Below, piece by piece: positions 2,499 through 32,122 of a DNA stretch of 64,000 nt. Below the pieces are notes generated by a model. It worked only from the letters and a program-made list of their open reading frames with translations, was not told the DNA's origin and ran no database searches. A program made the translations under genes and the position numbers. Position 1 is the first letter of the stretch; each line of letters begins with the position of its first letter. The stretch comes from Nonomuraea jabiensis (GTDB lineage Bacteria; Actinomycetota; Actinomycetes; Streptosporangiales; Streptosporangiaceae): the NCBI RefSeq assembly GCF_014204795.1, contig NZ_JACHMB010000001.1:5406501-5470500 (forward strand). Reading direction: 5' to 3'.

Positions 2499-2512
2499 CA
2501 CAATCGCTTGTT
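2499..2512 (+). promoter_or_regulatory. KstR2 operator, weak copy for kstR2 autoregulation
   Basis: CACAATCGCTTGTT matches the KstR2 consensus AnCAAGnnCTTGnT with two mismatches. It lies 8 nt upstream of the kstR2 -10 box (CATAAT, read on the reverse strand). Confidence 0.65.
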
Positions 2513-2550
2513 CACCTAACCGGCCCAGCTCATGCGGCATTCCGTTCTGT

Positions 2551-2569
2551 ACCAAGCGCTTGCTACGAT
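2551..2569 (+). promoter_or_regulatory. Perfect KstR2 operator overlapping the fadA6 -10 box
   Basis: ACCAAGCGCTTGCT at 2551-2564 is an exact match to AnCAAGnnCTTGnT. The -10 box TACGAT (2564-2569) overlaps its last base and the fadA6 start follows 3-6 nt later, so a bound repressor would cover the promoter. Confidence 0.9.
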
Positions 2570-2575
2570 GCGGTG

Positions 2576-3736
2576 ATGGTGAACGAGGCGTACATCGTGG
2601 GAGCCGTCCGCACCCCCGTCGCGCGCAGGAACGGCGGCCTGGCCGCGGCCCACCCCGCCGATCTCGGCGCGCACGTGCTCAGGGAGCTGATGCACCGGAC
2701 GGGCGCCGATCCGGCGGCCGTCGACGACGTGATCTTCGGCTGCGTGGACACGATCGGCCCGCAGGCCGGGGACGTCGCCCGTACCTGCTGGCTCGCGGCC
2801 GGGCTCCCCGAGGAGGTGCCCGGCGTCACGGTGGACCGCCAGTGCGGCTCGTCCCAGCAGGCGCTCCACTTCGCCGCGCAGGCCGTGCTGTCCGGCACGA
2901 GCGACCTGGTGGTGGCCGGCGGCGTGCAGAACATGAGCATGATCCCCATCTCGGCCGCGATGCTCGCGGGCCGCGCCTTCGGCCACGAGACGCCGTTCGG
3001 GGGGTCCAAGGGCTGGGTCGAGCGGTACGGCACGCAGGAGGTCTCCCAGTTCGCGGGGGCCGAGCAGATGGCCGTCACCTGGGACCTGTCGCGGGAGGAG
3101 ATGGAGCGGTACGCGTACGAGTCGCACCGCCGGGCGCTGCACGCCATCGACGCCGGGCACTTCGTGCGCGAGATCGCCCCCTATGAGGGCGTGACCACGG
3201 ACGAGTGCCCGCGCCGGGACACCACGATCGAGCGGATGGCCGGGCTCAAGCCCCTGGTCGAGGGCGGCCGGCTCACCGCGGCCCTGGCGTCCCAGATCTC
3301 CGACGGCGCGGCGGCCCTGCTCGTCGCCTCACCCAGGGCCGTACGGGAGCACGGCCTGACCCCGCGCGCCCGCGTGCACCACCTGTCGGCCCGCGGCGCC
3401 GACCCGATCGTGATGCTCTCCGCCCCCATCCCGGCCACCGCCCGCGCCCTCGGCATGACGGGCCTGTCCATCGGCGACTTCGACGCCATCGAGATCAACG
3501 AGGCTTTCGCGCCGGTCGTGCTGGCCTGGATCAAGGAGACCGGCGCGGACCCCGCCAGGGTGAACCCGAACGGCGGCGCCATCGCGCTCGGTCACCCGCT
3601 CGGCGCGACCGGCGCCGTGCTGGCGGTGAAGCTGCTGCACGAGCTGGAGCGCACGGGCGGCCGGTACGGCCTGCAGACCATGTGCGAAGGAGGAGGACAG
3701 GCGAACGTCACCGTCATCGAGCGGCTCCCCGCCTGA
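2576..3736 (+). CDS. fadA6: FadA6, acetyl-CoA acetyltransferase of steroid ring degradation
   Basis: This thiolase of 386 residues has the full catalytic set: nucleophile Cys at about 90 (VDRQCGSS), His at about 340 (ALGHPLGATG) and Cys at about 370 (TMCEGGGQANVT). FadA6 carries out a late thiolysis of the ring-opened CoA intermediates formed after HIP degradation. The start is ambiguous between GTG 2573, ATG 2576 and GTG 2579. No ribosome-binding site fits, and the -10 box TACGAT places transcription at about 2576, so a leaderless ATG is chosen. The gene is divergent from kstR2, as in mycobacteria, and has a perfect KstR2 operator. A hairpin covers its stop codon. Confidence 0.92.
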   Translation: MVNEAYIVGAVRTPVARRNGGLAAAHPADLGAHVLRELMHRTGADPAAVDDVIFGCVDTIGPQAGDVARTCWLAAGLPEEVPGVTVDRQCGSSQQALHFAAQAVLSGTSDLVVAGGVQNMSMIPISAAMLAGRAFGHETPFGGSKGWVERYGTQEVSQFAGAEQMAVTWDLSREEMERYAYESHRRALHAIDAGHFVREIAPYEGVTTDECPRRDTTIERMAGLKPLVEGGRLTAALASQISDGAAALLVASPRAVREHGLTPRARVHHLSARGADPIVMLSAPIPATARALGMTGLSIGDFDAIEINEAFAPVVLAWIKETGADPARVNPNGGAIALGHPLGATGAVLAVKLLHELERTGGRYGLQTMCEGGGQANVTVIERLPA

Positions 3737-3743
3737 AGGCGGG
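3728..3743 (+). terminator. Short hairpin over the fadA6 stop
   Basis: CCCGCC-TGAA-GGCGGG forms a 6-bp stem with a tetraloop that contains the fadA6 stop codon. There is no T-run, so its strength is uncertain. Confidence 0.5.
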
Positions 3744-3770
3744 TGCTGACGTCAGAAAATGACTCTAGCA

Positions 3771-3794
3771 AATAGGAAACTTTCCTATTAGATT
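3771..3794 (+). promoter_or_regulatory. Perfect 19-bp palindromic operator at the GH3 promoter
   Basis: AATAGGAAACTTTCCTATT (3771-3789) is a perfect palindrome around C3780. It overlaps the probable -10 box TAGATT (3789-3794), 7 nt before the ATG of the glycosidase gene. Sites with a GGAAA-TTTCC core occur upstream of amino-sugar and cell-wall hydrolase genes in actinomycetes; the cognate regulator is not in the window. Confidence 0.8.
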
Positions 3795-3801
3795 TCGGGT
3801 C

Positions 3802-5280: not shown

Positions 5281-5284
5281 TCCC

Positions 5285-5956
5285 GTGAACTTCGACGGCG
5301 AGGATCTTTCCCGCAAGGCGCTGGCCGACCGTCTCCCCGCGGACGAGACGCATTTCTTCCGCGAGTGCGACCTGACGGAGACCGACCTGTGGGGCGCTCC
5401 GCTGGCGGGGGCCAGGTTCGAGTCGTGCGTGCTGGACCAGACCGACTTCCGCAAGGCCGACCTCGACGGGGCCACGTTCGCGGGCGGGGGCGGGATGCGG
5501 ACCCGCTTCAACGACGCCGACCTCATCGACGTGACGTTCACCGACGTGGACCTGTCCTCGGCACAGTTCGGCGGCGCGCTCCTCACGGACGTCTCGTTCA
5601 CGGGGTGCCGCATGATCGGCGCCGCGCTGACGGGCTCGCGCGGCACCGGCTTCAAGGTCGCCCGCTCCAACCTGACCCTGGCCAACCTCGGCGGGTGCTC
5701 CCTGCGCGGGGAGGTCGTCGAGGGGGTCCGCTTCGACGACGCCGACCTGTCGGGGTGCGACTTCACGGAGGCCACGTTCAGCGACTGCCGGTTCATCGGG
5801 ACGCGCCTGCTGCAGACCAAGTTCAACAAGGCCGATCTGCGCGGCGCGGACCTGGGCGAGCCGGACGACGCGAAGCTGCGGGCGTTCGCGGGCGCCATCA
5901 TCAACCAGACCCAGGCCAACGCCATCCTCGCCGCCCGCGGCATCACCGTGCTCTGA
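5285..5956 (+). CDS. Pentapeptide-repeat protein
   Basis: The 223-residue protein is built of tandem A(D/N)LXX-type pentapeptides: TETDLWGAPLAGARF, KADLDGATFAGG, NDADLIDVTFTDVDLSSAQF, DDADLSGCDFTEATF, NKADLRGADL. Such repeats fold into a right-handed beta helix. Some relatives (Qnr, MfpA) mimic DNA and protect gyrase, but most have no known role, and nothing here decides. There is no signal peptide. GTG 5285 follows the glycosidase stop by 4 nt, yet TAGGGT at 5271-5276 is a good -10 box, so it may also have its own leaderless transcript. A hairpin spans its stop codon. Confidence 0.85.
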   Translation: MNFDGEDLSRKALADRLPADETHFFRECDLTETDLWGAPLAGARFESCVLDQTDFRKADLDGATFAGGGGMRTRFNDADLIDVTFTDVDLSSAQFGGALLTDVSFTGCRMIGAALTGSRGTGFKVARSNLTLANLGGCSLRGEVVEGVRFDDADLSGCDFTEATFSDCRFIGTRLLQTKFNKADLRGADLGEPDDAKLRAFAGAIINQTQANAILAARGITVL

Positions 5957-5988
5957 GCCCGGCCAGTGCGTCAACGCGCGCCGGCTCA
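5954..5988. terminator. Hairpin between the convergent pentapeptide gene and ipdC
   Basis: TGAGCCCGG at 5954 pairs with CCGGCTCA (5981-5988), with one bulged C. The left arm includes the stop codon of the pentapeptide gene. It could stop transcription from both sides. Confidence 0.5.
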
Positions 5989-6002
5989 CCCGGAGGGCGC
6001 GG

Positions 6003-7043
6003 TCAGGGCGCCTCCATTGTGCGGCCCAGGTGGGTCAGGGTGGTCTCGGCGTCGGTCATGATGCGGTCGATCAGCTCGCGGCAGGACGGCAGGTCGTCGA
6101 TCACGCCCACCACCTGGCCCGACGCCATCACCCCGAGGTCCGCCCGGCCCTCCACCATGGCGGCCCGCAGCAGCACCGGCGTGTTGGCCGCCTGCAGGAC
6201 CTGGGCCCAGGTCAGGTCGCGCGCCTGCCTCATCCGTCGGCCCTCGCGCAGCATCTCGCCCCACGACAGCCCCGACAGCCGCCTGAACCTGGCCCCGTTC
6301 ACCACCGCCCTGACCAGGCGCGAGCGCTCCAGCGACGCCACGAACGGGGTCAGCAGGACCCGGTGGGGCACCCCGTCCACCTTGGTCGTGACGACCGTGT
6401 CCCGCGTGGCCAGATAGAGCTTCTTCACCTCGTCGGGCACGGGGGAGTCGCTGGTCAGCAGGAACCGGGTCCCCATGGCGATCCCGCAGGCCCCGTACGC
6501 CAGCGCCGCCACCAGCCCCCGCCCGTCGAAGAAGCCCCCGGCCGCGATCACCGGGATGTCCACCGCGTCCACGACCTGGGGCAGCAGCAACGTCGTGGCG
6601 ACGGAGCCGGTGTGGCCGCCGCCCTCCCCGCCCTGGACGATCACCGCGTCCACGCCCCAGCCCGCCACCTTCTCCGCGTGCCGGCGCGCCCCGACCGACG
6701 GGATCGTGACCACGCCCGCGTCCTTGAGCCGGGCGATCAGGTCCCGCTTGGGCGCCATCGCGAACGACGCCACGCGCACGCCCTCCCTGATCAGCACCTC
6801 GATCCGCGCGGCGGCGTCGTCGGCGTCGGACCGGAGGTTCACCCCGAAGGGCGCGTCCGTGCGCTCCTTCACGCGCCTGATCGCGGCGGTCATCTCCGCC
6901 ACGGACATCGTCGCGGCGCCGATCACGCCCAGACCGCCGGCCTGGGAGGTGGCCGCCGCCAGCCGGGCGCCGGCGACGTACCCCATGCCGGTCTGCACGA
7001 TCGGGTGGCGGCACCCGACCAGGGACGTCAGCGCGGTCCTCAC
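6003..7043 (-). CDS. ipdC: IpdC, flavin-dependent oxidoreductase of steroid ring degradation
   Basis: The 346-residue protein is a nitronate monooxygenase-like TIM barrel. It shows GCRHPIVQTGMGYVAGARL at the N-terminus, GGEGGGHTGSVATTLLLPQV in the phosphate-binding region, AAGGFFDGRGL, MGTRFLLTSDS and DLPSCRELID near the end. These match IpdC (Rv3553-type), an FMN enzyme acting on CoA-bound C/D-ring intermediates before ring hydrolysis; I recall the family well but not its exact reaction. GTG 7043 is chosen because it overlaps the ipdB stop as GTGA; the frame is open much further upstream but only as a shadow. It is the last gene of the echA20-ipdA-ipdB-ipdC operon. Confidence 0.9.
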   Translation of the reverse strand: MRTALTSLVGCRHPIVQTGMGYVAGARLAAATSQAGGLGVIGAATMSVAEMTAAIRRVKERTDAPFGVNLRSDADDAAARIEVLIREGVRVASFAMAPKRDLIARLKDAGVVTIPSVGARRHAEKVAGWGVDAVIVQGGEGGGHTGSVATTLLLPQVVDAVDIPVIAAGGFFDGRGLVAALAYGACGIAMGTRFLLTSDSPVPDEVKKLYLATRDTVVTTKVDGVPHRVLLTPFVASLERSRLVRAVVNGARFRRLSGLSWGEMLREGRRMRQARDLTWAQVLQAANTPVLLRAAMVEGRADLGVMASGQVVGVIDDLPSCRELIDRIMTDAETTLTHLGRTMEAP

Positions 7044-7759
7044 GCGAACTCCCGGTCCCGCAGTCGCCCGGGGTCGAGGCGGTCCAGGACCTCCAGCTCC
7101 TCGACGGTCGGCCCGCGCGTCCGGGGCACGTTGGTGGGAATGTCGAGCTCGAAGCCGGTCGCCGCCACCACGTCGTCCACCTCGGCCCCCGGGTGCACCG
7201 ACACCAGGCGCATGGTGCCGCCGGGGGTGCGGAAGTCCAGCACGGCCAGGTTCGTCACGACGCGGCGCAGGTCGAAGGCGCCCCTGTCGGTCCCGACCCC
7301 GCTGACCAGGTCCACCGAGGGCACGAACACCCGAGGGGAGTGCCGGGGGATCCAGTAGCTGGTGGGGTCGCAGCGGGTGTTCCCCGGCGCGCCCCGCACG
7401 CCCAGCAGCTGCGCCTTGGGGCGGGCCCAGTCGCCGATGCAGGAGATGTTCGTGTTGCCGTACCGGTCGATCTGGCTCGCCCCGAGCATGACGTGCCGGC
7501 GCCCGTTCAGCACCAGCCACAGGTGCTCGCGGAACGGCAGCCACCCCTCCACCACCCCGGGCGCCTCGCCCAGCGCGGGCACGTCGCCGGTGAGCAGGCA
7601 GGTGCCGTCGTGCGTGAGCAGCTCCGGCTCGAACGTCAGCCGCGCCAGCCGCGCCGCCAGCACCGTGACCGGCCCGCCGATGCCCGCCGCCAGGATCTCG
7701 CCGTCGCCCCGGAACGCCTCCGCGCACGCCACCACGCACACGTCAGCCCTGCTGCTCAT
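7040..7759 (-). CDS. ipdB: IpdB, beta subunit of COCHEA-CoA hydrolase
   Basis: The 239-residue protein belongs to the class I CoA-transferase fold and resembles IpdB (Rv3552-type): VCVVACAEAFRGDGEI near the start, then ARLARLTFEPELL, GRRHVMLGASQIDRYGN, GVRGAPGN and a C-terminal LDPGRLRDRE. IpdA and IpdB form a heteromer that hydrolyses the last steroid ring of COCHEA-CoA rather than moving CoA. Its ATG lies 17 nt inside the end of ipdA and its stop overlaps ipdC, so the subunits are translationally coupled. Expression should follow the KstR2 site in the echA20/SDR intergenic region. Confidence 0.92.
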   Translation of the reverse strand: MSSRADVCVVACAEAFRGDGEILAAGIGGPVTVLAARLARLTFEPELLTHDGTCLLTGDVPALGEAPGVVEGWLPFREHLWLVLNGRRHVMLGASQIDRYGNTNISCIGDWARPKAQLLGVRGAPGNTRCDPTSYWIPRHSPRVFVPSVDLVSGVGTDRGAFDLRRVVTNLAVLDFRTPGGTMRLVSVHPGAEVDDVVAATGFELDIPTNVPRTRGPTVEELEVLDRLDPGRLRDREFA

Positions 7760-8525
7760 CGAACTCCTCCCAAGGCGTCTCCACGTAGCGCCGCTGCAGC
7801 GCCTCGTCGCGCCCGTAGTCGGGCTCGCACGCGGTGAAGCCCGCCCCGCCGGGCGCCTCCACCACCCCCGCCACCGTCGACCGGTTGATCAGCAGCGACT
7901 GCACGGGCCCCTCCTTCAGCAGGTTCTCCACGACCCGCTCGCAGGAGACGTAGCAGCGCCGCGCCGCCTTGGCGTAGAGGTCGTCGAAGTACGGGTCGGG
8001 CCCCAGGTACTGGGCGTTGCCCCGCGCGTCGGCCCGGTTCAGGTGGACGAGGGCCACGTCCATGGTCAGCGCGGGCACCGCGACCAGCTCCTCCCCGTCC
8101 GCGTACGGCGAGCGCACCGTCCGCAGCCCGGGGTTGACGCGCAGCACGTCCGACCCCAGCCCCGCCCGCGTCGGCAGGAACGGCAGCCGGTGCGCCCCCG
8201 CGAGCAGCCCGAACATGAACATGCCCTCGTCGTACTCCACGAACTCGATCTCCCCGGCCTGCCTGGCCCGCCGGAAATGGGGCTCCAGGGGGATGGAGTC
8301 GAGCGTCACGAACGGGGCCACGACCTTGCGCACCTTCCTGGCCGCGCAGAGCATGCCCACGTCCGGGCCGCCGTACGAGACGATCGTGAGGTCGGTGGCG
8401 GGGGAGCGCAGGAGTGCGCGGACGAGGGCCATCGGCTTGCGCCGCGAGCCCCAGCCGCCGATCCCGACCGTCATCCCGCTCTCGACCGTGCCCGCGACCT
8501 GCTCGGCAGACATCAGCTTGGTCAC
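7743..8525 (-). CDS. ipdA: IpdA, alpha subunit of COCHEA-CoA hydrolase
   Basis: The 260-residue CoA-transferase-fold protein matches IpdA (Rv3551-type). The N-terminal motif is SGMTVGIGGWGSRRKPMALV, followed by VSYGGPDVGMLCAARKV, FLPTRAGLGSDV, LGPDPYFDDLYAKAA and VEAPGGAGFTACEPDYGRD. With IpdB it opens the last carbocyclic ring of steroid catabolism. GTG 8525 overlaps the echA20 stop as GTGA. The mycobacterial enzyme is about 290 residues; the shorter length reflects the absence of its C-terminal tail and is unlikely to affect the active site. Confidence 0.92.
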   Translation of the reverse strand: MTKLMSAEQVAGTVESGMTVGIGGWGSRRKPMALVRALLRSPATDLTIVSYGGPDVGMLCAARKVRKVVAPFVTLDSIPLEPHFRRARQAGEIEFVEYDEGMFMFGLLAGAHRLPFLPTRAGLGSDVLRVNPGLRTVRSPYADGEELVAVPALTMDVALVHLNRADARGNAQYLGPDPYFDDLYAKAARRCYVSCERVVENLLKEGPVQSLLINRSTVAGVVEAPGGAGFTACEPDYGRDEALQRRYVETPWEEFDEQQG

Positions 8526-9250
8526 GTGAATCGCTCCCTGTGCCGGTCTCCGGCGCCCATCAGGTTCAGCTCGAAGGTGAAGCCCTGCTCGAAGCGGTAG
8601 CTGCGCTTGACGTCCACGGGGTCGATGCCGTTGAGGGACTCCTTGGCGCGGCGGATCACGTACGGGTCCTTCGCGGCGATCTGCCCTGCCACCTCCAGCG
8701 CCGCGTCACGCAGCTTGTCGCGCGGCGCGACCTCCAGCACCGACCCGAACGCGTGCAGCTCGGCCGCCGTCACGTTCCTGCACGTGTAGACCATGGCCCG
8801 CATCAGGTGCTGCGGCACCAGCCTGGCCAGGTGCGTGGCCGCGCCCAGCGCGCCCCTGTCCACCTCGGGCAGCCCGAAGTACGCGTCGTCGGCGGCCACC
8901 ACGATGTCGGCGTTGCCCGCCAGGCCGACGCCGCCGCCCAGGCAGTGGCCGTGCACCGCCGCGATCACCGGGACCGCGCACTCGTAGACGGCCGCGAACG
9001 CCGCGTAACAGGCCCGGTTGACCCCGACCAGCGCCTCGTACCCCTCGGCGTCCCGCAGCTCCTTGATGTCGACCCCGGCGTTGAACCCGCGCCCCTCGGC
9101 CCGCAGCACCACCACCCTGGTCTCCGGATCGTCCCCGGCCCGCCGGACGGTCCAGGCCAGCTCCTCCCAGCCGCGCACGGTCAACGCGTTCACCGGCGGC
9201 ACGTCCACGACCACCTCGGCGATCGGCCCGGCCCGCAGAGTGATCCCCAT
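8522..9250 (-). CDS. echA20: EchA20, crotonase-fold ring hydrolase
   Basis: The 242-residue enoyl-CoA hydratase-family protein has the two oxyanion-hole segments, GFNAGVDIKELRD and HGHCLGGGVGLAGNADI, with FGLPEVDRGALGA after them. In steroid C/D-ring catabolism EchA20 hydrolyses one ring of HIEC-CoA to give COCHEA-CoA, the IpdAB substrate. ATG 9250 is preferred over 9268 because AGGGAG sits 4-5 nt upstream and the family starts close to MGITLRAG. It is the first gene of the echA20-ipdABC operon, and it shares a 46-nt intergenic region and one KstR2 site with a divergent SDR gene. Confidence 0.92.
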   Translation of the reverse strand: MGITLRAGPIAEVVVDVPPVNALTVRGWEELAWTVRRAGDDPETRVVVLRAEGRGFNAGVDIKELRDAEGYEALVGVNRACYAAFAAVYECAVPVIAAVHGHCLGGGVGLAGNADIVVAADDAYFGLPEVDRGALGAATHLARLVPQHLMRAMVYTCRNVTAAELHAFGSVLEVAPRDKLRDAALEVAGQIAAKDPYVIRRAKESLNGIDPVDVKRSYRFEQGFTFELNLMGAGDRHRERFT

Positions 9251-9266: not shown

Positions 9267-9289
9267 ACCTAACGCTTGCTTGGTACGGT
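9267..9289 (+). promoter_or_regulatory. KstR2 operator between echA20 and the SDR gene
   Basis: ACCTAACGCTTGCT (9267-9280) keeps one perfect half of AnCAAGnnCTTGnT and has two mismatches in the other half. TACGGT (9284-9289) is the -10 box of the rightward SDR gene, with its GTG 7 nt later. Confidence 0.7.
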
Positions 9290-9296: not shown

Positions 9297-10034
9297 GTGA
9301 CCGTGACTTACGACTACACGGGCAGGGCCGTCCTGGTGACCGGCGGCACCCAGGGCATCGGCGCGGGGATCGCCCGCGCCTTCCGGGAGGCGGGCGCCGA
9401 CGTGACGGTCTGCGCCCGGCGCGAGCCGGCCGCGCCGGTGCCGGGGATCCGGTTCGCGCGGGCCGACGTGCGGGTGGCCGAGGACGTCGAGCGGCTGATG
9501 TCCGGGTTCGACCGGCTGGACGTGGTGGTCAACAACGCCGGCGGCTCGCCGTACGCGCCGCTCGACGGCACCTCGCCGCGCCTGCACGCCCGCGTCGTCG
9601 AGCTCAACCTGACGGCCCCGCTGCTGGTCTCGCAGTTCGCCTACCCGTTGCTCGCCCCCGCCGGCGGGGCGATCGTGATGATCGGCAGCGCCAGCGGCGC
9701 CCGCCCCTCGCCCGGCACCTCCGCGTACGGCGCCGCCAAGGCCGGGCTGCACCACCTGGCCCGCTGCCTGGCCGCCGAGTGGGCCCCGGAGGTGCGCGTC
9801 AACACGGTCGTCGTCGGCCTGGCCGCCACCGAGCATGCCGCTTCCCACTACGGCGGGCAGGAGGACGGGATGGGGGCGGCCATCCCGGCAGGCCGGATGG
9901 CGACGCCCGCCGACGTGGCGGCGGCCTGCCTGTGGCTGGCCGCGCCCGGCTACGTCACGGGCGCGGAGGTGCGGGTGGACGGCGGCGGCGAGATCCCCGC
10001 CTGGCGGCACCTGGCCTCCGGCGACATTTCCTGA
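9297..10034 (+). CDS. Short-chain dehydrogenase of the steroid cluster (Rv3549c-like)
   Basis: This 245-residue SDR has a TGGTQGIGAGIARAF cofactor motif, VVNNAGG, a catalytic Ser in IGSASGARPS and the YGAAK pair (Tyr/Lys). It resembles the SDR next to echA20 in mycobacterial KstR2 regulons; its step in ring C/D oxidation is not established. GTG 9297 lies 7 nt after the -10 box TACGGT with no ribosome-binding site, pointing to a leaderless transcript. A frame start at 9276 would lie upstream of the promoter and is rejected. The next SDR follows after 31 nt and is probably co-transcribed. Confidence 0.85.
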   Translation: MTVTYDYTGRAVLVTGGTQGIGAGIARAFREAGADVTVCARREPAAPVPGIRFARADVRVAEDVERLMSGFDRLDVVVNNAGGSPYAPLDGTSPRLHARVVELNLTAPLLVSQFAYPLLAPAGGAIVMIGSASGARPSPGTSAYGAAKAGLHHLARCLAAEWAPEVRVNTVVVGLAATEHAASHYGGQEDGMGAAIPAGRMATPADVAAACLWLAAPGYVTGAEVRVDGGGEIPAWRHLASGDIS

Positions 10035-10065: not shown

Positions 10066-10968
10066 GTGGGAATCTGTGCTGGCCGCGTGGTGATCGTGAC
10101 GGGCGCCGGACGCGGGATCGGGAGGGAGCACGCGCTGGAGTTCGCCCGGCAGGGCGCCCGCGTCGTGGTGAACGACCTCGGCACGGGCCCCGGCGGCGAG
10201 GGCGGCTCGGGAGCCCCCGCGCTGGAGGTGGTCGCGGAGATCGAGGCGCTCGGCGGCCAGGCGGTGGCCAACTGCGACGACGTGTCCGACTGGGGCGGCG
10301 CGGCCCGGCTGGTCAAGACGGCCGTCAGCGCGTACGGCCGCCTCGACGTCCTGGTGAACAACGCCGGCTTCCTCAGGGACCGGATGCTCGTCTCCATGAC
10401 CGAGCAGGACTGGGACGACGTCGTCCGCGTCCATCTCAAGGGCCACTTCCTGCCGCTGCGCCACGCGGCGGCGTACTGGCGGGAGAGCGCCAAGGCGGGC
10501 GAGCGCGTCACGGGCCGGGTGATCAACACCTCGTCCGGCGCGGGCCTGCTCGGCAGCGTCGGCCAGGCCAACTACTCGGCCGCCAAGGCGGGCATCGCCG
10601 CGCTGACCCAGGTGGCAGCGGCCGAGCTGGGCAGGTACGGCGTGACCGTGAACGCCATCGCCCCCGCCGCCCGCACCCGCATGACCGAGGAGGTGTTCGC
10701 CGCGACCATGGCCAGGCCGGAGTCCGGCTTCGACCCCATGGACCCGGCCAACATCGCCCCGCTCGTCGTCTGGCTCGGCTCCGAGGGGTCGGGCCACGTG
10801 ACGGGGCGGGTGTTCGAGGTGGAGGGCGGCTCGATCGCCCTGGCCACGGGCTGGCGCCACGGCGAGCGGGCCGAGCGCGACGGCCGCTGGGACCCCGCGG
10901 ACGTCGGCGACGCGGTCGACGGGCTGCTGGCCGCCGCCCCGTCGCCGGAGCCCGTGTACGGAGCGTGA
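10066..10968 (+). CDS. Short-chain dehydrogenase, 17-beta-HSD4-like (Rv3548c-like)
   Basis: The 300-residue SDR has the cofactor motif TGAGRGIGREHALEFA, the NDLG signature typical of the 17-beta-HSD type 4/multifunctional beta-oxidation group, VLVNNAGFLRDRML, catalytic Ser in NTSSGAGLLG and the YSAAK pair. Such enzymes oxidise 3-hydroxyacyl-CoA or ring hydroxyls with NAD. GTG 10066 follows GGGAGG by 5 nt. It is second in an operon with the preceding SDR under the KstR2 site at 9267, the same pair seen in mycobacterial regulons. The 3-hydroxyacyl-CoA substrate is an inference. A convergent NIPSNAP gene begins 10 nt after its stop. Confidence 0.85.
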   Translation: MGICAGRVVIVTGAGRGIGREHALEFARQGARVVVNDLGTGPGGEGGSGAPALEVVAEIEALGGQAVANCDDVSDWGGAARLVKTAVSAYGRLDVLVNNAGFLRDRMLVSMTEQDWDDVVRVHLKGHFLPLRHAAAYWRESAKAGERVTGRVINTSSGAGLLGSVGQANYSAAKAGIAALTQVAAAELGRYGVTVNAIAPAARTRMTEEVFAATMARPESGFDPMDPANIAPLVVWLGSEGSGHVTGRVFEVEGGSIALATGWRHGERAERDGRWDPADVGDAVDGLLAAAPSPEPVYGA

Positions 10969-17865: not shown

Positions 17866-18463
17866 CGAAGCCTCCGTAGCCCCCGCGGAAGAACAGCAGC
17901 GGGCCACCCTCGGAGTACGTGTCGAGCTGGAGCACCCGGGCCACCACGATCATGTGGTCGCCAGCCGGGTGCTCGGCCTCGATCGCGCAGTCGATCCAGG
18001 CCAGCGCGCCTTCGAGCACCGGGTTGCCGCCGGGGGAGCCGCTCCACTCCAGGCCCGCGAACTTGTCGCCGCCCTTGGTCGCCAGCTGGGCGCACACCGC
18101 CTGCTGGTGCTCGGCCAGCACGTTCACGGTGATGACCTTGGCGCCGCGTACCTTGGGCCAGCTGGAGCTGGTGTAGGCCACGCAGAACGCCACCAGGGGC
18201 GGGTCGAGCGAGACCGAGGTGAAGGAGTTGGCCGCCAGGCCGCACGGCAGGCTGTTCGCCGGATCGACCGCCGTGATCGCCACCACACCCGTCGCGAACC
18301 TCCCGAGCACCTGCCGGAAGCGGCGGCTGTCGAGGTGACCGTTCGCGCTGTGAGGTGAAGGGCCGGTCGGCATTGCGGCTCCGTTGCGAATCCTGCGCTG
18401 ATGGGGCGTCGGAAGGCCGCGACAGCCGTCCGGCGCGACGAGCCGGGCAGCGTGTGTGCTCAT
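17852..18463 (-). CDS. Flavin reductase family protein, HsaB-like
   Basis: The protein has the flavin reductase (split-barrel FMN) fold: RRFRQVLGRFATGVVAIT, CGLAANSFTSVSLDPPLVAF, SSSWPKVRGA, KVITVNVLAEHQQ and DKFAGLEWSGSPGGNPVLEG, ending FFRGGYGGFVERL. It resembles HsaB, the NADH:FMN reductase of the 3-HSA hydroxylase, but no HsaA oxygenase is in the window. ATG 18463 has AGGAGG with a 6-nt spacer and lies 31 nt after TATGAT (18495-18500); this gives 203 residues with a 30-residue extension. ATG 18373 would give a more typical length. It could supply reduced flavin to the LLM monooxygenase at 29.5 kb. Confidence 0.82.
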   Translation of the reverse strand: MSTHAARLVAPDGCRGLPTPHQRRIRNGAAMPTGPSPHSANGHLDSRRFRQVLGRFATGVVAITAVDPANSLPCGLAANSFTSVSLDPPLVAFCVAYTSSSWPKVRGAKVITVNVLAEHQQAVCAQLATKGGDKFAGLEWSGSPGGNPVLEGALAWIDCAIEAEHPAGDHMIVVARVLQLDTYSEGGPLLFFRGGYGGFVERL

Positions 18464-18494: not shown

Positions 18495-18513
18495 ATCATA
18501 CCAAGCGCTTGCT
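18495..18513 (-). promoter_or_regulatory. Perfect KstR2 operator abutting the flavin reductase -10 box
   Basis: ACCAAGCGCTTGCT on the plus strand (18500-18513) is an exact consensus match, extended to CCAAGC...GCTTGG. Read leftward, TATGAT (18500-18495) is the -10 box, followed by AGGAGG and ATG 18463. Confidence 0.9.
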
Positions 18514-18585: not shown

Positions 18586-18639
18586 TTGACATAGGGGAAA
18601 TTTCCGGCCTAACGTGACGTTTGTGCCCAAGCGCTTGCT
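18586..18639 (+). promoter_or_regulatory. Promoter of the Ltp2-like gene with a KstR2 operator at the start codon
   Basis: TTGACA (18586-18591), an 18-nt spacer and TAACGT (18610-18615) predict transcription from about 18622, next to GTG 18623. CCCAAGCGCTTGCT (18626-18639) matches the KstR2 consensus with one mismatch, inside the first codons. The spacer also holds the palindrome GGAAATTTCC (18596-18605). Confidence 0.7.
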
Positions 18640-19792
18640 TGACATCCGAGACCGCGCCGCGATAGCCGGGGTCGGCTACACCCCCTTCACGAAGGACTCG
18701 GGCGTCAGCACCCTCACGCTGGCCTGCCGCGCCGTGCTGGCCGCGCTGGAGGACGCGGGCCTGGCGGTGGACGAGGTGGACGGGCTGGCCACGCACCGCG
18801 TGGGCGACTCCGCCGCCCCCACGCTGGTGGCCCCCGCGCTGGGCCTGACCGACCTCTCCTGGCACCTCGACCAGTTCGGCGGCGGCAGCGTCTCGCACGC
18901 CGTCGTAGGCCAGGCAGCGCTGGCGGTGGCGGCCGGAGTGGCCGAGACGGTGGTGTGCTACCGGGCCATCAACGCCCGTTCCGAGTTCCGCATGGGCGGC
19001 ACCGACCGGAGCGTGCCGGTGAGCCCGGAGGTGCAGTATCAGGCGCCGTACGGGTACGTGGCGCCGCCGCAGCAGTACGCCATGTACGCCCGGGCCCACA
19101 TGCTGAAATATGGCACTCAAGCCGAGCATTTCGGGCAGTTGGCCGTCACCCAGCGCGCCAACGCGGCCAAGAACCCCCGCGCCCTCATGCGCACCCCCAT
19201 CACGCTGGACGACTACCTGGCGAGCAGGTGGATCGCGGAGCCGTTCCGGCTGCTGGACTGCTGCCTGGAGACGGACGGGGCCTGCGCCGTGGTCGTCACC
19301 ACGGCCGAACGCGCCCGCGCGCTCCGCCGCCCACCGGTGCTGATCTCGGGCGCGGCCTGGGGCGGCGGCACCTCTCACCTCTCGGGCCCGTCCGCCGACC
19401 CCACGGTGACCGCGGCCGCCGCCCTGGCCCCGCGCCTCTACGCGCAGGCCGGGCTGGGGCCGGCGGACATCGACGTGGCCGAGCTGTACGACTGCTTCAC
19501 GTACTCGGTGATCGTCCAGCTCGAGGACTACGGGTTCTGCGAGAAGGGCGAGGGCGGGCCTTACGTGGCCTCGGGCGCGACGGCGCCGGACGGCGCGCTC
19601 CCGGTCAACACCCACGGCGGCTTCCTGTCCGAGGGCTACGTCCACGGCATCAACCACATCGCCGAGGCCGTCTCCCAGCTCAGAGGCGACGCGGGGGACC
19701 GCCAGGTGCCCGGAGCCGAGGTCGCGCTGTCCACGGCCCAGCCCGGCTACATCCTCCCGGCCACCTCCGCCCTGATCCTGAGGAGATCATGA
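18623..19792 (+). CDS. Ltp2-like thiolase-fold aldolase of the steroid cluster
   Basis: The 389-residue thiolase-fold protein begins IRDRAAIAGVGYTPFTK, the lipid-transfer-protein opening. The region of the thiolase catalytic His reads NTHGGFLSEGYVHGINH, so a Tyr (about 339) replaces it, and a second Tyr (about 289) lies in ELYDCFTYS. The 50-residue spacing equals that of the two catalytic tyrosines reported for Ltp2 (294 and 344, from memory), a retro-aldolase that cleaves the steroid side chain. A stand-alone DUF35 gene follows directly, as its required partner. GTG 18623 is chosen from the promoter; GTG 18614 is possible. The substrate under KstR2 control is unknown. Confidence 0.82.
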   Translation: MPKRLLDIRDRAAIAGVGYTPFTKDSGVSTLTLACRAVLAALEDAGLAVDEVDGLATHRVGDSAAPTLVAPALGLTDLSWHLDQFGGGSVSHAVVGQAALAVAAGVAETVVCYRAINARSEFRMGGTDRSVPVSPEVQYQAPYGYVAPPQQYAMYARAHMLKYGTQAEHFGQLAVTQRANAAKNPRALMRTPITLDDYLASRWIAEPFRLLDCCLETDGACAVVVTTAERARALRRPPVLISGAAWGGGTSHLSGPSADPTVTAAAALAPRLYAQAGLGPADIDVAELYDCFTYSVIVQLEDYGFCEKGEGGPYVASGATAPDGALPVNTHGGFLSEGYVHGINHIAEAVSQLRGDAGDRQVPGAEVALSTAQPGYILPATSALILRRS

Positions 19793-20214
19793 TGACGGCC
19801 TACCGGCCCGAACCCGACCGCGACTCCAGGCAGTGGTGGGAGCGGGTCGCCGGGCAGGAGTTCGCCGTCCAGGAGTGCGAAGGATGCGGGGCGGTGCGCT
19901 TCCCGGCGCGGTCGTTCTGCCCCGAGTGCCGCACGGAGGCGTGGCACTGGCGGGAGGTGGAGCCCGAGGGGGTGGTCGAGAGCTGGATCGTCAACCATCA
20001 GCCGTTCATGCCGGGGTTCGAGGTGCCGTACGTGGTGGTGATGGTCCGGCTGGCGGCGGTGCCGGGGTGCTTCGTGTACGGGAACTGGCGCGGCGACGGC
20101 CCTCCGGAGCGCGGCTGGCGCGTCCGGGCCGCCTACCGCCGGGTCGACGAGCGGTTGACCCTGGTGGACTGGGCGCCGGATGATCATCCGGTGGGGCGCA
20201 AATCCTCCCGCTAG
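19792..20214 (+). CDS. DUF35 OB-fold/zinc-ribbon protein, partner of the Ltp2-like aldolase
   Basis: The 140-residue protein has a rubredoxin-like zinc ribbon with Cys at about 29, 32, 43 and 46 (CEGCG and CPECR), then an OB-fold (VEPEGVVESWIVNHQP, VVVMVRLAAVPGC). Such ChsH2-type DUF35 proteins bind CoA substrates and are obligate partners of Ltp aldolases and of HMG-CoA synthase-type enzymes. In mycobacteria the DUF35 domain is fused to the ChsH2 hydratase; here it stands alone. ATG 19792 shares a base with the upstream stop (TGATG) and has AGGAG 6 nt upstream. ATG 19789 is an alternative. Confidence 0.85.
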   Translation: MTAYRPEPDRDSRQWWERVAGQEFAVQECEGCGAVRFPARSFCPECRTEAWHWREVEPEGVVESWIVNHQPFMPGFEVPYVVVMVRLAAVPGCFVYGNWRGDGPPERGWRVRAAYRRVDERLTLVDWAPDDHPVGRKSSR

Positions 20215-26715: not shown

Positions 26716-26846
26716 GCAGTATCTGTCCCCAGCTCGGGCGCGGCGGGCGCGCCGGAGGACAGGACGAGGGCTAATTCGACCCTACTCGCCCCGGAGCCTC
26801 GGCAGACGGCTTCGCGCCCCCGTTCTCACCTTGCCGGAGATGGAGC

Positions 26847-28382: not shown

Positions 28383-28389
28383 GTCACCC

Positions 28390-29427
28390 CTAGGTGATGA
28401 GAGCGCGGTCCCTTCCGAGGTGGTGGCCGCGCAGGTCGTTCACCGTGCCCGGCGCGGGGGTCTCGGAGACGTCCTGGGCGATCTCCACGTCGATCGATAT
28501 GGGCGTCAGCGCCTGGACGGCCTGCTGGATCCTCGACTTCCACATGGGGTTGCGGACCAGGCTCCCCCGGCTGAACGTGACCGTGAGCACGGCCGCGTCC
28601 AGCGTCCCCTGGCGGCTGATCGACAGGTCCCAGCCCGAGACGCCGTCGATCTTGGAGAGCGCCTTCTCGATGCGCGGCAGCGCCAGCCACACGCCTCTGA
28701 CCAGCACGTGGTCGCCCACCGTGTGCGCCGGTGCGGGTATGCCCGCGCCGCCGACCCTGGCGACCTGGCCGGTCCTGAGCACGGTGTCGCCGGCCGCGGA
28801 GGTGACGACCAGCTCGGCGAGCTCGGCCGCGGAGTCGGGGGAGTCGTCCTTGGTCAGCGCCGCCAGGCCCAGCACGTCGTCGGCGAGCGGGGTGAGCGGG
28901 TCCTCCTCCGACGCCCGCCACGCCAGGGCCCCACCGGTGAACGGGCTCGCGAACACCTCCGTCACCCTGGCCTCGAACTCTCCCGCCAGGTGGGCGATCG
29001 TCCGCTTGGAGGCGATCTCCCCGGTGAGGACGATGTTCCTGAGCCCGAGGTCCAGCGGGTCCAGCAGGAACTCCAGGTGCAGGCGGGCCAGGAAGTCCAT
29101 CGCGCCCGTCGGGGTGATGACCAGGGTGGAGGCCTTGAGGGCGGTCAGCGCGTGGTGCAGGCGCATCCGGCCGCGCGGGCCCACGTCGGCGGCGGCCTCG
29201 GCCACGTCGGCCGCGGCGGCCGTCCAGAGCGCCCCGGCGGGTTCGGCGAGTGCCACCACGACGCGCTCGCGCTCTCCGGCGCCGCACTCGCGCAGCGCCT
29301 TCGCGGTCAGTACGTGGTCGCGGGGGTCCAGCGGGACGGCGCTCGACAGGTCGGGGGAGACGAGCAGGAGCCCGGTGGCGGTGCGCGCGGTGGCGCCGAG
29401 GTCGTCACGGGTGAGCCAGCGGGCCAT
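28390..29427 (-). CDS. PaaK-like ligase homologue lacking the nucleotide-binding loop
   Basis: This 345-residue protein resembles phenylacetate-CoA ligase: KASTLVITPTGAMDFLARLHL, then LGLRNIVLTGEIASKR (PaaK-like GLRxxxxxGE) and a C-terminal part VRGVWLALPRIEKALSKIDGV, like the PaaK C-domain. It is about 90 residues shorter than PaaK and the TSGTTGxP loop is absent; the N-terminal part has no glycine-rich loop. Adenylation is therefore unlikely. A regulatory partner or a non-catalytic subunit are possible. The gene lies between the LLM and fadD3 genes with only 7 nt to fadD3, so all three should be co-expressed. No function is known to me. Confidence 0.65.
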   Translation of the reverse strand: MARWLTRDDLGATARTATGLLLVSPDLSSAVPLDPRDHVLTAKALRECGAGERERVVVALAEPAGALWTAAAADVAEAAADVGPRGRMRLHHALTALKASTLVITPTGAMDFLARLHLEFLLDPLDLGLRNIVLTGEIASKRTIAHLAGEFEARVTEVFASPFTGGALAWRASEEDPLTPLADDVLGLAALTKDDSPDSAAELAELVVTSAAGDTVLRTGQVARVGGAGIPAPAHTVGDHVLVRGVWLALPRIEKALSKIDGVSGWDLSISRQGTLDAAVLTVTFSRGSLVRNPMWKSRIQQAVQALTPISIDVEIAQDVSETPAPGTVNDLRGHHLGRDRALIT

Positions 29428-29491
29428 CGAAGCACCTATCTCCGTAGGTCGAGCGTCCGGGGCAGCGGGCGAGGGCGGGCCGTCGACGCGG

Positions 29492-30559
29492 TCAACGTGC
29501 CACCTCGGTCATGAACAGCGTCATCGAGTCGCACACCCGGTCATGCGCCAGCCCGCCCACCTGCGCCTGGATGATGAGGTCCGTCGCGCCCGCCTCGGCG
29601 ATCCTGGCCAGGGCCTTGCGCGAGCCCTCCACGTCGTCGACCACCACCATCAGGTGCTCGCGCAGCGTGGCCATGGACTCCTCGGGCGGCATCCCGGCCG
29701 CGAGCTGCCCCAGCACCCGGTGGGTGGCGTGGCGGGCGTCGTAGTAGTCGGGCGGGGTGACGAGGTTGACCTGGCGGCGGATGTACCACAGGACGGCGTC
29801 GGCGGCCGAGGCGGTCGCCTCGTCGCGGGTGGGGGCGACGTACCAGGGGATCATCAGGGCGACGCGGCGGCTCGCGGGGTCGAAGCCGTGCTCCGCCAGA
29901 CATTCCCGATATTTCGTGATGTCGGAGGCCACGTCGTCGATGCCCTTGAGCATGGTCATGCCGAGCAGGTTGTACCCGTGCCTGGCCGCCGCCAGATAGC
30001 CCTCCAGCGAGGTCGAGGCCACCCACACCGGCGGGTGCGGCCGCTGGGCCGGGCGCGGGTAGACGGCCACGTCGGGGATCTCGAAGAACTCGTTCGACCG
30101 GCTGATCGGCTCGCCGTCGGCCTGCCAGATGGCCAGCGTCGCCTCCAGCGAGTCCTCCCAGATCTGCCGCGACTTCTCGAACGGCCGCTGGAACGCCTGG
30201 TACTCCAGGGGCGAGGCCCCCCGTCCCGTGCCGAACTCCACCCGGCCGCCGCTCAGCACGTCCAGCGTGGCGACGCGCTCCGCCGTGCGGATCGGGGACT
30301 GGAACGGCAGCAGCACCACGCCGAGCCCCAGATGGATGCGCTCGGTGCGCTGCGAAATGGCGGCCAGGACCAGGTCGGGCGCGGAGGAGTGGGAGAAGCC
30401 CCTGGTGAAGTGGTGCTCCACGAACCAGGCCGTGTCGAACCCCAGCCGGTCGCCCAGCACGACCTGCTCGATCACGTTCTGGAACGTCTGCTGCTCCACT
30501 TCGCGGGTGCGACCGCGAACCTCCAGCTCATACCCCAGGCTGATCCTTAGGGACGTCAT
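29492..30559 (-). CDS. Luciferase-like (LLM) flavin-dependent monooxygenase
   Basis: The 355-residue TIM-barrel enzyme has the LLM signatures DRLGFDTAWFVEHHFTRGF, LGLGVVLLPFQSPIRTAERVA, LSGGRVEFGTGRG and HPPVWVASTSLEGYLAA. Such enzymes oxidise substrates with reduced FMN or use F420; the two cannot be separated here. ATG 30559 has GGAGG with a 4-nt spacer; the frame from 30583 would reach the KstR2 site and is rejected. The gene heads an operon with the PaaK-like gene and fadD3. A related protein (Rv3520c) lies in the mycobacterial steroid locus. Reduced flavin could come from the HsaB-like reductase at 18 kb. Confidence 0.82.
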   Translation of the reverse strand: MTSLRISLGYELEVRGRTREVEQQTFQNVIEQVVLGDRLGFDTAWFVEHHFTRGFSHSSAPDLVLAAISQRTERIHLGLGVVLLPFQSPIRTAERVATLDVLSGGRVEFGTGRGASPLEYQAFQRPFEKSRQIWEDSLEATLAIWQADGEPISRSNEFFEIPDVAVYPRPAQRPHPPVWVASTSLEGYLAAARHGYNLLGMTMLKGIDDVASDITKYRECLAEHGFDPASRRVALMIPWYVAPTRDEATASAADAVLWYIRRQVNLVTPPDYYDARHATHRVLGQLAAGMPPEESMATLREHLMVVVDDVEGSRKALARIAEAGATDLIIQAQVGGLAHDRVCDSMTLFMTEVAR

Positions 30560-30578
30560 CGCGCCTCCGAAGTAGTGA

Positions 30579-30592
30579 ACCAAGCGCTCGCT
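30579..30592 (-). promoter_or_regulatory. KstR2 operator upstream of the LLM operon
   Basis: Read on the reverse strand this is AGCGAGCGCTTGGT, one mismatch from AnCAAGnnCTTGnT, and it is 20 nt upstream of ATG 30559. The extended palindrome ACCAAGC-GCTC-GCTTGGT spans 30579-30596. A clear -10 box was not identified. Confidence 0.8.
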
Positions 30593-30650
30593 TGGTAGAG
30601 CGTATCAGCAGCGAAGACTTGCGGGAAGGGCGCGGAGCCGATCAGAGTGG

Positions 30651-31136
30651 ATGCCTGTGAAGCGAAAGCACGCGCTGCGGCGGCCTAAGGACGGCCCGTT
30701 CCCCGATTCCGCCGACGACGACCTCTCGCTCACCAGCGCCCGCAGGTATGAGGCGTTCGGCCGGGTGATGGCCGCGCTGGCGACCGAGGCCGACTTCATC
30801 GAGTCGTGCCGCGACCTGACGTGGTGGCGAGGGGCCGATCACAGCTGGCACATCGAGTGGCGCGACGGCCCGTACGCGTCCGAGGTGGCCTTACTGCTGG
30901 CCCAGCAGGTGCGCGACCCCGACTACGACGGCCCGCTCGTCACCGAGGCCGGGCCGGGGAGCAGCGGTTCGGCGGTGCTCGACGTGATGGGCGTGCGGTT
31001 CGAGCTGCGGGCCATCGACCCGATCGGGCGGGCCACCGTACGGGAGCGGCCCGGCTTCTGGCGCCTGGCCGAAGCCCTCGACACCACCCGCCGCACCAAC
31101 ACCCGCCACCCGTGGGAGGAACTGCTCGGCGGCTGA
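30651..31136 (+). CDS. Conserved hypothetical protein, 161 residues
   Basis: The protein begins MPVKRKHALRRPKDGPF and has a compact, charged sequence with DLTWWRGADHSWHIEWRDGP and PGFWRLAEALDTTRR. There is no signal peptide, membrane segment or known domain that I can identify. Codon use looks coding and the frame has no competing homologous ORF. It is divergent from the LLM gene, whose KstR2 site lies 58 nt upstream of its ATG, but no site sits at its own promoter. The ATG has no clear ribosome-binding site. The nearby fadE gene is convergent. Confidence 0.65.
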   Translation: MPVKRKHALRRPKDGPFPDSADDDLSLTSARRYEAFGRVMAALATEADFIESCRDLTWWRGADHSWHIEWRDGPYASEVALLLAQQVRDPDYDGPLVTEAGPGSSGSAVLDVMGVRFELRAIDPIGRATVRERPGFWRLAEALDTTRRTNTRHPWEELLGG

Positions 31137-31160
31137 CCCCGTACCCATGGGGCGCGGGCG

Positions 31161-32096
31161 CTAACCGAGGGCGTGGGCCGCCAGGCGGGCGCGATGGGCC
31201 TGCGGCGGCCCGAAGAGCTGCGCGTCCGAGGTGGCCCGCTTGAGGTAGCGGTGCGCAGGATGCTCCCAGGTGATCCCGATCCCGCCGTGGACCTGGATGT
31301 TCTCACCCGCCGCCGCCAGATACGCCTCCGTGCAGTACGACCCCGCGATCGCCGCGTACACCCCGTCGGCCGCCGCCGCCCCCGCGGCCGACCTGGCCGA
31401 CTCCACCAGCAGCAGCAGATCGGCGAGCTTGTGCTTGATCGCCTGGAACGACCCGATCGGCCGCCCGAACTGCCGCCGCCGCTTCGCGTGCTCCACCGCC
31501 ATCTCCAGGCACCGCTGCGCCCCGCCCACCTGCTCGGCGGCCAGCGCCGCGATCCCGAGGTCGCGCACGCGGGGCCACGACGAGCCGTCGCCGAGCCGCC
31601 GTGCCGGGGTGTCCTGGAAGGAGAGCTCCTGCAGCGGCCGGCTCTCGTCCATGGTCCGGTACGTCCTGCGCCGGGCGGGCACGGCCGCCACCAGCAGCCC
31701 GTCCACGTAGACCAGCGCCAGCTCGCCCGCCGGCACGTACGGGACCACCCCCGTGAGCAGGCCGGACTCCAGCCGGAGGGTCCCCTCGCCCGGCGGCACC
31801 ACGGTCGCGGTCGTGGCGCCGCCGACCAGCGCCGGGAGCAGGTCGTACGCGCCGCTCGCCCTGAGCGCCTCGACGGCCATCACCGCCGTCTGCAGGAACG
31901 GGTGGGGCGACAGCGCCCGGCCCAGCTCCTCGCCCACGGCGGCCATTTCGGCCGGCCCGCATCCCGCCCCGCCGTGTTCCTCGGGGACGAGCAGCCCCGC
32001 GATCCCCACGTCGCGCGCGAAAGCCTGCCACGGTGCGTCCGGCCGGTCGGCGAGGTAGTCGCGGACGACGGCGCGGAGCTCATCGGGAAGTGCCAC
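31161..32096 (-). CDS. Short acyl-CoA dehydrogenase (FadE32/FadE33-like)
   Basis: At 311 residues this acyl-CoA dehydrogenase is far shorter than the usual 380-400 and lacks part of the N-terminal half. It retains GIAGLLVPEEHGGAGCGPAEM, the flavin-side segment AEQVGGAQRCLEMAVEHAKRRRQFGRPIGSFQ and the end VHGGIGITWEHPAHRYLKRA. This matches FadE32/FadE33 of the KstR2 regulon, which pair with a full-length partner as heteromers. No such partner is in the window apart from FadE30. GTG 32096 lies 6 nt after TAGTAT (32103-32108), so a leaderless mRNA is likely, next to a KstR2 site. Confidence 0.82.
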   Translation of the reverse strand: MALPDELRAVVRDYLADRPDAPWQAFARDVGIAGLLVPEEHGGAGCGPAEMAAVGEELGRALSPHPFLQTAVMAVEALRASGAYDLLPALVGGATTATVVPPGEGTLRLESGLLTGVVPYVPAGELALVYVDGLLVAAVPARRRTYRTMDESRPLQELSFQDTPARRLGDGSSWPRVRDLGIAALAAEQVGGAQRCLEMAVEHAKRRRQFGRPIGSFQAIKHKLADLLLLVESARSAAGAAAADGVYAAIAGSYCTEAYLAAAGENIQVHGGIGITWEHPAHRYLKRATSDAQLFGPPQAHRARLAAHALG

Positions 32097-32102
32097 GGGC
32101 CC

Positions 32103-32122
32103 ATACTAACCAAGCGATTGTT
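32103..32122 (-). promoter_or_regulatory. KstR2 operator and -10 box of the short fadE gene
   Basis: ACCAAGCGATTGTT (32109-32122) matches the consensus with one mismatch and directly abuts TAGTAT (32108-32103, reverse strand), the -10 box placed 6 nt before GTG 32096. Confidence 0.8.

Follow-up and report, generated by a model that had tools for sequence, protein, structure and literature searches.

The locus and its operators

The stretch considered here, called the window throughout, comprises 64,000 nucleotides of the Nonomuraea jabiensis genome (assembly GCF_014204795.1, contig NZ_JACHMB010000001.1, positions 5,406,501 to 5,470,500). Near its left end a gene for a TetR-type repressor stands divergent to one for a FadA6-type thiolase, and a set of genes for HIP (C/D-ring) catabolism is present: IpdA, IpdB and IpdC, EchA20, FadA6 and SDR genes. 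A first-pass annotation had read this DNA as a single KstR2 regulon of steroid C/D-ring degradation, scattered over 30 kb and marked by seven operators. It is quite probable that the repressor instead represents a clade of its own within the KstR2 family, here called clade A, that it controls a scattered steroid regulon, and that it took over the HIP genes from the true KstR2. The genes concerned are as follows.

1810..2478, minus strand: TetR repressor, probable KstR2 paralogue (clade A); TetR_N and TetR_C_24; PDB 2ibd/4w1u, E 4e-57/1e-50; GTG start probably leaderless
2576..3736, plus strand: fadA6-type thiolase (PRK07801); NCBIfam NF005865, 685 bits, over cut-off; probably leaderless
6003..7043, minus strand: ipdC-like FMN enzyme (nitronate monooxygenase/FabK family); PF03060, 3.7e-81; FabK-type structures
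7040..7759, minus strand: ipdB; CoA_trans, 2.6e-8; 48% identical to two copies of genome group f4
7743..8525, minus strand: ipdA; top PDB matches 6co6/6coj/6con, E 9e-89 to 3e-83
8522..9250, minus strand: echA20; PRK07938, 408 bits, over cut-off
9297..10034, plus strand: SDR (Rv3549c/IpdF type); PRK07856, over cut-off; probably leaderless
10066..10968, plus strand: SDR (Rv3548c type); PRK07791, over cut-off
16690..17907, minus strand: acyl-CoA dehydrogenase downstream of the flavin reductase; TIGR03204, below cut-off; true start probably lower
17852..18463, minus strand: HsaB-like flavin reductase; NF045630, 183 bits (cut-off 230); PF01613
18623..19792, plus strand: Ltp2-like thiolase/lipid-transfer protein; PDB 6ok1 'Lipid-transfer protein', 1.2e-87
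19792..20214, plus strand: ChsH2-type DUF35 partner; PF01796 and PF12172
23951..25093, minus strand: DUF6986 protein, end of the LLM operon; PF22484
25077..26507, minus strand: FAD/NAD oxidoreductase; PF07992
26847..28382, minus strand: FadD3-like acyl-CoA ligase; NF005801, 526 bits (cut-off 657)
28390..29427, minus strand: conserved protein of 345 aa between the LLM and the FadD3-like ligase, kept in G301, G307 and G232; no Pfam, NCBIfam or credible PDB match
29492..30559, minus strand: luciferase-like monooxygenase (LLM); PF00296, 6e-55; nearest solved relatives PuwE and alkanal monooxygenase-like proteins
31161..32096, minus strand: ipdE2-like acyl-CoA dehydrogenase; NF050027, 195 bits (cut-off 450); probably leaderless

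Three of these names are our assumption: we take the enzyme at 6003..7043 to be IpdC from its position and its presumed family, the structures 6co6/6coj/6con to be IpdA, and 6ok1 to be Ltp2. The first choice of open reading frame (ORF) for the SDR at 9297 had the wrong frame or start and was replaced, as was a wrong-frame ipdC at 5986-7014. The latter had served as the tblastn query, so ipdC plays no part in the locus comparisons among relatives.

The seven operators, listed without strand and with scores from a matrix described below, are these.

2499..2512: putative operator of the repressor gene itself; 2.3 bits; CAAGCnnTTG, shortly before a CATAAT-like box, kept in 29/30 clade A genomes
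2551..2564: operator of fadA6; 22.9 bits; adjoins -10 TACGAT; at least 14.8 bits at the same promoter in 3/3 relatives (G301, G307, G308)
9267..9280: operator common to echA20-ipdABC and the SDR pair; 12.3 bits; present at the same promoter in 10/10 further genus loci fetched
18500..18513: operator of the HsaB-like operon; 23.7 bits; next to -10 TATGAT; at least 23.7 bits in 3/3 relatives
18626..18639: operator inside the first codons of the thiolase gene; 12.9 bits; counterparts of at least 11 bits in G301 and before the G151 orthologue, none in G307 or G308
30579..30592: operator of the LLM-fadD3 operon; 25.4 bits; inverted repeat ACCAAGCG-CT-CGCTTGGT; at least 25 bits in 2/2 relatives whose fetched region covers that spot
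32109..32122: operator of ipdE2; 29.8 bits; at least 31 bits in 2/2 relatives whose fetched region covers that spot

All seven matches lie where they had been placed, and with the mismatch counts then given: none at 2551 and 18500, one at 18626, 30579 and 32109, and two at 2499 and 9267. The loose 14-bp pattern behind them is of little value. With up to two mismatches it occurs 37 times in the window (6.4 expected from shuffles); genome-wide, with up to one mismatch, it gave 319 matches against 313 in a reversed control, without enrichment. By itself it is no evidence, and counting it as such was dropped. A tighter form, ACCAAGCGCTTGCTNV, gave 18 genome-wide matches with up to one mismatch against seven in the control, six of the 18 falling inside 116 kb. 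The wide palindrome CCAAGCGnnnGCTTGG was rejected at two mismatches, where it is rarer than in the control (413 versus 778), and of its matches those with 0 or 1 mismatch alone were kept, as leads. Two single-mismatch matches of the loose pattern in the window, at 38145 and 49901, had been omitted by the first-pass annotation; both lie inside called ORFs, score below 12 bits (1.9 bits for 38145) and are probably chance matches.

Because the loose pattern alone proves little, a 24-bp palindromic matrix was built from seven distinct published operators of Mycobacterium smegmatis, M. tuberculosis and Rhodococcus jostii, and from these only (Table 3 of PMC3068626). At 12 bits or more it returned 18 hits, which fall at 14 distinct places, across 180 kb that take in the window and its surroundings (the window starts at genome position 5406501), against 0.63 expected under a first-order Markov model. 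The 14 places are six of the seven sites and eight more to the left of the window, and KstR2-type matches were found at HIP-gene promoters in the window and in relatives. Six of the claimed operators are thus recovered independently; the seventh, 2499, draws its support solely from phylogenetic footprinting.

Among the 30 clade A genomes, 26 carry GAACAAGCnnTTG before the repressor gene, followed by CATAATGG and then the GTG start; the block is GAACAAGCGATTG in 22 of them and has a different middle in four g2 genomes. In G087 and G141 the site there matches the consensus perfectly (AACAAGCTCTTGCT), and G309, G232 and G241 have the variant ACCAAGCGnTTGG at the place equivalent to 2499. The start was mis-anchored in G275 (L097) and no such block was seen there, hence the count of 29/30. 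Promoter prediction at 2499 gave one promoter-like pair, TGAACA-18-CATAAT. On conservation, not on the matrix, 2499 is accepted as a putative autoregulatory operator.

Conservation extends to the other operators. In three other genomes of the genus group (G301, G307, G308) a site of at least 11 bits stands at 29/37 operator-bearing gene starts versus 0/36 other gene starts of the cluster, cells without an orthologue or with less than 55% identity having been set aside (8/45 targets, 15/51 controls). The 29 positive starts are not 29 independent sites, as divergent pairs share them (echA20/SDR, HsaB-like/thiolase and, in part, ABC importer/alcohol dehydrogenase). The misses, eight in all, comprise an Rv3549c-type SDR (G301), LLM_5362 and LipL three times each, and LLM_5319 once; for the last three genes the called ORFs start too far upstream, and sites are seen close to the aligned gene starts. 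Far from the window, near genome position 8519514, a candidate operator precedes the gene of a 3-ketosteroid 1-dehydrogenase, KstD (7p18, 3.7e-119). Among the best 80 named kstD loci of 580 relatives found, an operator of at least 12 bits lies between -400 and +120 in 21/22 assessable Streptosporangiaceae-type loci (the miss is L266, N. basaltis) and in 0/57 loci of Amycolatopsis, Streptomyces, Kibdelosporangium and others. The Streptosporangiaceae-type loci number 23, with L320 lacking upstream sequence, and comprise Nonomuraea (one listed as [Actinomadura] parvosata), Sphaerisporangium and one metagenome-assembled genome of unstated family. That most sites are chance matches, or are bound by unrelated TetR proteins, is most improbable: the flat genome-wide count of the loose pattern and the deficit of the wide palindrome at two mismatches would fit such a reading, which the matrix statistics and the conservation at relatives' starts and at kstD oppose.

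Several of the operators had also been placed at -10 boxes of leaderless transcripts, and several do overlap or adjoin -10-like boxes, at starts of which several lack a Shine-Dalgarno sequence. Read by eye, such boxes directly adjoin the operator or come after it at kstR2, fadA6, the 9297 SDR gene, the HsaB-like gene and ipdE2; the HsaB-like start has a Shine-Dalgarno sequence and several of the others have none. With several operators placed inside or next to the -10 region, repression probably works by steric block. The operators are often extended to ACCAAGCGnnnGCTTGGT in this genome. An 18-bp extended form as a peculiarity of the genus was considered and dropped, the published R. jostii site ACCAAGCGATTGCTTGGT already having it; the extended half site (CAAG-n2-CTTG and a further CTTG) occurs in published operators too (PMC3068626) and is not new.

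Identity of the regulator

The top three PDB matches of the window TetR are the KstR2 structures 2ibd, 4w1u and 4w97, of which we take 2ibd to be KstR2 of R. jostii. In the phylogenetic tree the protein nevertheless does not group with R. jostii and mycobacterial KstR2, so the KstR2 label given to it by the first-pass annotation calls for revision. The 30 clade A rows (100/99; 37 rows with group f17) split with support of 100/97 from 29 rows of the KstR2 clade, which hold 2ibd, 4w1u, the groups f4, f26 and f18, and a second Streptosporangiaceae regulator termed type B. This second tree omits six long-branch rows (L155, L136, L144, L156, L157 and L101) and holds 7/8 of the family's second copies. 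A first tree with all 72 rows gave the same split at 98/99; in it L144, the second copy of G241, falls on the KstR2 side, and L156 and L157 join clade A on a long branch. Group f17 (L220-L222, L230) has single KstR2-like regulators that group with clade A in the unrooted tree, and clade-A-type operators at HIP promoters. The group names are given by inference: f17 is Amycolatopsis-like and f18 Streptomyces-like.

The recognition helices divide along group lines. GILSGSLYHHF is found in 30/30 clade A and 10/10 f4 rows and, among 66 sequences in all, SGSLYHH in 55/55 of clade A, f4, f26 and f17 as against [GA]GSLYYH in 11/11 of type B and f18 (seven family second copies and four from f18). Where they were read, the operators of type B and f18 are TAACAAnnnTTTGG, and the helix split is in step with the operators read, which cover part of the 66 sequences, with f26 represented by one cluster (L223). 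Type B and f18 regulators resemble clade A in sitting in a HIP gene cluster and presumably controlling HIP genes, and differ in operator, helix and pocket, where Arg becomes Ser or Asn.

The pocket motif RD[TS]IW[VM][AT]VRW occurs in 30/30 clade A proteins. In KstR2 the Trp and Arg of this motif have a role in HIP-CoA binding. The VRW portion is kept in 30/30 clade A and 10/10 f4 proteins, whereas the 11 of type B and f18 read ASW or ANW; it is no clean marker because of exceptions in f26 (VSW once, VGW once) and f17 (VHW in 6/7). Residue numbering for KstR2 is available from PMC13176608, and HIP-CoA is described as the KstR2 effector in PMC5380842. HIP-CoA as the inducer of the window regulon is plausible. 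A dimer of the clade A protein would sit on or beside the -10 box and block RNA polymerase, and binding of a steroid-derived CoA thioester (HIP-CoA or similar) would release it, giving coordinated induction together with autoregulation.

An ordinary KstR2 regulon, in which the TetR is merely a diverged KstR2 orthologue serving sterol C/D-ring catabolism, would account for the fit of the operators to the published consensus, for the KstR2 structures heading the PDB matches and for the retained motif RDxxWVxVRW. It is disfavoured by the 100/97 split and by the coexistence, in seven genomes (the eighth, G241, being on a long branch), of a second regulator that lies inside the KstR2 clade and keeps the gene order SDR-regulator-fadA6 of f26 KstR2. 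Nor were KshA, HsaA and HsaC found in the N. jabiensis genome, and we regard this explanation as quite unlikely.

Two regulators and the HIP genes

A type B copy coexists with clade A in 8/30 family genomes, in a survey that scored ten candidates per genome; like f26 KstR2, it stands in the order SDR-regulator-fadA6, except in G241. All eight have ipdA within ~8 kb of type B, G241 with a further ipdA elsewhere. Clade A alone together with ipdA occurs in 14 genomes, within 10 kb of each other in 13 and on another contig in G310, and in the last 8/30 no ipdA was found at 1e-40.

A tree of concatenated IpdA, IpdB and EchA20 (24 rows; the f17 rows lack echA20) joins four clade-A-linked sets with seven type-B-linked sets of the same family (100/99), f18 lying outside. 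This suggests that the regulator was exchanged. Beside clade A, operators nearly identical to 9267 precede the SDR pair (G151, G055) or the Rv3548c-type SDR (G259), and the window operator sits between the SDR pair and echA20; 9267 is proposed as the junction of the exchange. On the simplest reading, echA20-ipdAB would have arrived divergent to a clade A operator, and the true KstR2 would then have been lost. The HIP genes of this genus would in this way have been taken over from the true KstR2, which sister genera keep with a different operator.

The grouping of clade A with f17 regulators in the unrooted tree, and the same operator type at f17 HIP promoters, could also mean that clade A and the HIP genes were transferred together from the f17 lineage (Amycolatopsis-like by inference) with no exchange of regulators. 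This is unlikely, given that the ipdA-ipdB-echA20 sets of four genus members group with type-B-linked enzymes of Streptosporangiaceae (100/99) and not with f17, and that clade A occurs without ipdA in 8/30 genomes.

Several points weigh against a clade A regulon that captured the HIP genes. Site 2499 fails the published-operator matrix. The genome encodes at least 35 other related TetR proteins (150/290 candidates scored), the nearest 32% identical, and the regulator survey went to the depth of ten candidates given above. The enzyme tree covers 4/14 clade-A-linked genomes, its branching order with respect to G232 has weak support (61/46), and both copies from G241, on long branches, lie apart from the family group. 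The labels HsaB, FadD3 and IpdE2 lie below curated cut-offs; among the remote sites, the conservation test covers that of kstD; and the absence of enzymes discussed below is judged by homology, clade A being present also in G087, G215 and G241, which have KshA and HsaA. The KshA and HsaA genes of these three lie on the same contigs as the type B copies.

Extent of the regulon and the A/B-ring enzymes

A single-looking regulon with KstR2-type operators at C/D-ring genes is borne out, with a paralogue in place of the orthologue and an extent that had been understated. With 2499 there are 15 operators between genome positions 5320932 and 5438616 (~118 kb), so that the set begins ~88 kb before site 2499. 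Sites outside the window, in genome positions, are as follows.

Near 5320932, 5332100, 5332162, 5342279, 5353850, 5355780, 5358368 and 5363942: eight matrix sites left of the window
Near 6687086, 6690616, 6691370, 6704461, 3188029, 3979271, 1414852, 4597735, 8519514, 6479277, 12922835 and 2322001: remote candidate sites of ~15 bits or more, from pattern matches or from stretches fetched around them

Genes near the left-hand operators encode LLMs, an alcohol dehydrogenase, a branched-chain-type ABC importer, acyl-CoA dehydrogenases, a ChsH2-type DUF35 protein, CoA ligases, a LipL-like esterase and a CYP105-like P450. Of the LLM genes, five belong to operator-led units or stand at their head (5319623, 5345716, 5362853, 29492 of the window and the 6690616 region), alongside one HsaB-like reductase. 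The protein at 1414852 is CYP125-like (8vxi, 5.5e-149). The predicted targets would thus join side-chain genes (CYP125, Ltp2-like) with KstD, HIP and LLM genes. High-scoring candidate operators also occur at genes without an obvious steroid link, in L085 near 9835 (26.6 bits) and L079 near 9271 (27.8 bits).

Enzymes of A/B-ring opening are missing from this inventory. The N. jabiensis genome gave no KshA_C match to the profile, a best HsaA match of 163 bits against a cut-off of 450, and no HsaC at 1e-20. Across 19 genus-group genomes the yield was a 32-bit KshA fragment in G298 (cut-off 23.3), a sub-threshold piece in G309, no HsaA at 1e-80 (0/19), and HsaC at 1e-20 in three (G304, 39%; G311, 38 and 35%; G312, 34%). 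As positive controls, KshA (277-320 bits) and HsaA were recovered in 20/20 f4 and f26 genomes searched, and HsaC with at least 54% identity in 5/5, one being the source of the query. Operators precede CYP125, KstD, Ltp2-like, HIP and LLM genes, yet no KshA, HsaA or HsaC can be recognised in the genome, and the regulon is therefore not simply the lower half of the known 9,10-seco sterol pathway.

Elsewhere in the survey, G016, G141 and G161 have a strong HsaA homologue (~652-668 bits) without KshA or IpdA, and no HsaC was found at 1e-20 in the three f17 genomes searched (G100, G132, G111). Group f18 (L145-L148, L224) has HIP clusters with a type-B-like regulator; of eight genomes searched, none has HsaA at 1e-80, and KshA_C matches reach only 77 and 93 bits, in two. 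HIP genes without A/B-ring enzymes may be common outside Streptosporangiaceae too.

It is doubtful, yet to be reckoned with, that the A/B-ring enzymes are present in forms too diverged to detect, acting in a normal 9,10-seco pathway. KstD and CYP125 do carry operators, the family members G087, G215 and G241 have KshA and HsaA, and the KshA fragment of G298 and the 34-39% HsaC-like proteins could be traces of such enzymes. Against it, the same searches succeed for KshA and HsaA in 20/20 and for HsaC in 5/5 f4/f26 genomes, and beyond the weak matches named nothing turned up in the 19 genus genomes. A KshA-independent steroid route is possible, and replacement of KshA and HsaA by LLMs is offered as a hypothesis only. 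More broadly, and tentatively, Nonomuraea and its relatives might carry out a sterol-like breakdown that bypasses KshA, HsaA and HsaC, with LLMs fed by the HsaB-like reductase opening the A/B rings and HIP-type intermediates passing to IpdAB, all controlled by a single KstR2 paralogue to which the HIP genes passed from the true KstR2.

The system shares much with the KstR2 regulon described for M. tuberculosis, M. smegmatis and R. jostii (PMC3068626): the operator core AnCAAGnnCTTGnT, the recognition helix, the fadA6, ipdAB, echA20 and SDR targets, and operators within tens of bases of the starts. It differs in having a paralogue as regulator, 15 local operators and remote candidates where three are described there, and added kstD, CYP125, LLM and importer genes, in a genome where KshA, HsaA and HsaC were not found. 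For Nocardioides simplex a large KstR2-type regulon is already predicted, with sites before 29 operons of which 10 are induced by phytosterol (PMC7807495 and PMC7593942); that organism is described as having genes for 3-ketosteroid 9alpha-hydroxylase, and its KstR and KstR2 regulons as separate. Putative steroid degraders are reported in 16 actinobacterial genera, including Streptomyces and Amycolatopsis, in PMC4810484, the text of which does not contain the word Nonomuraea. In a literature search with most subscription journals outside its reach, nothing was recognised on such a KstR2 paralogue or on KshA-less steroid degradation in Nonomuraea.

The locus offers a readable case of two sister repressors, apparently insulated from one another by matched changes of recognition helix and operator, one of which appears to take over target operons of the other. 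It also presents a genus in which CYP125, KstD and HIP genes apparently stand under one regulator and none of the known ring-opening enzymes is found, so that an alternative aerobic route of steroid degradation becomes testable in a soil bacterium.

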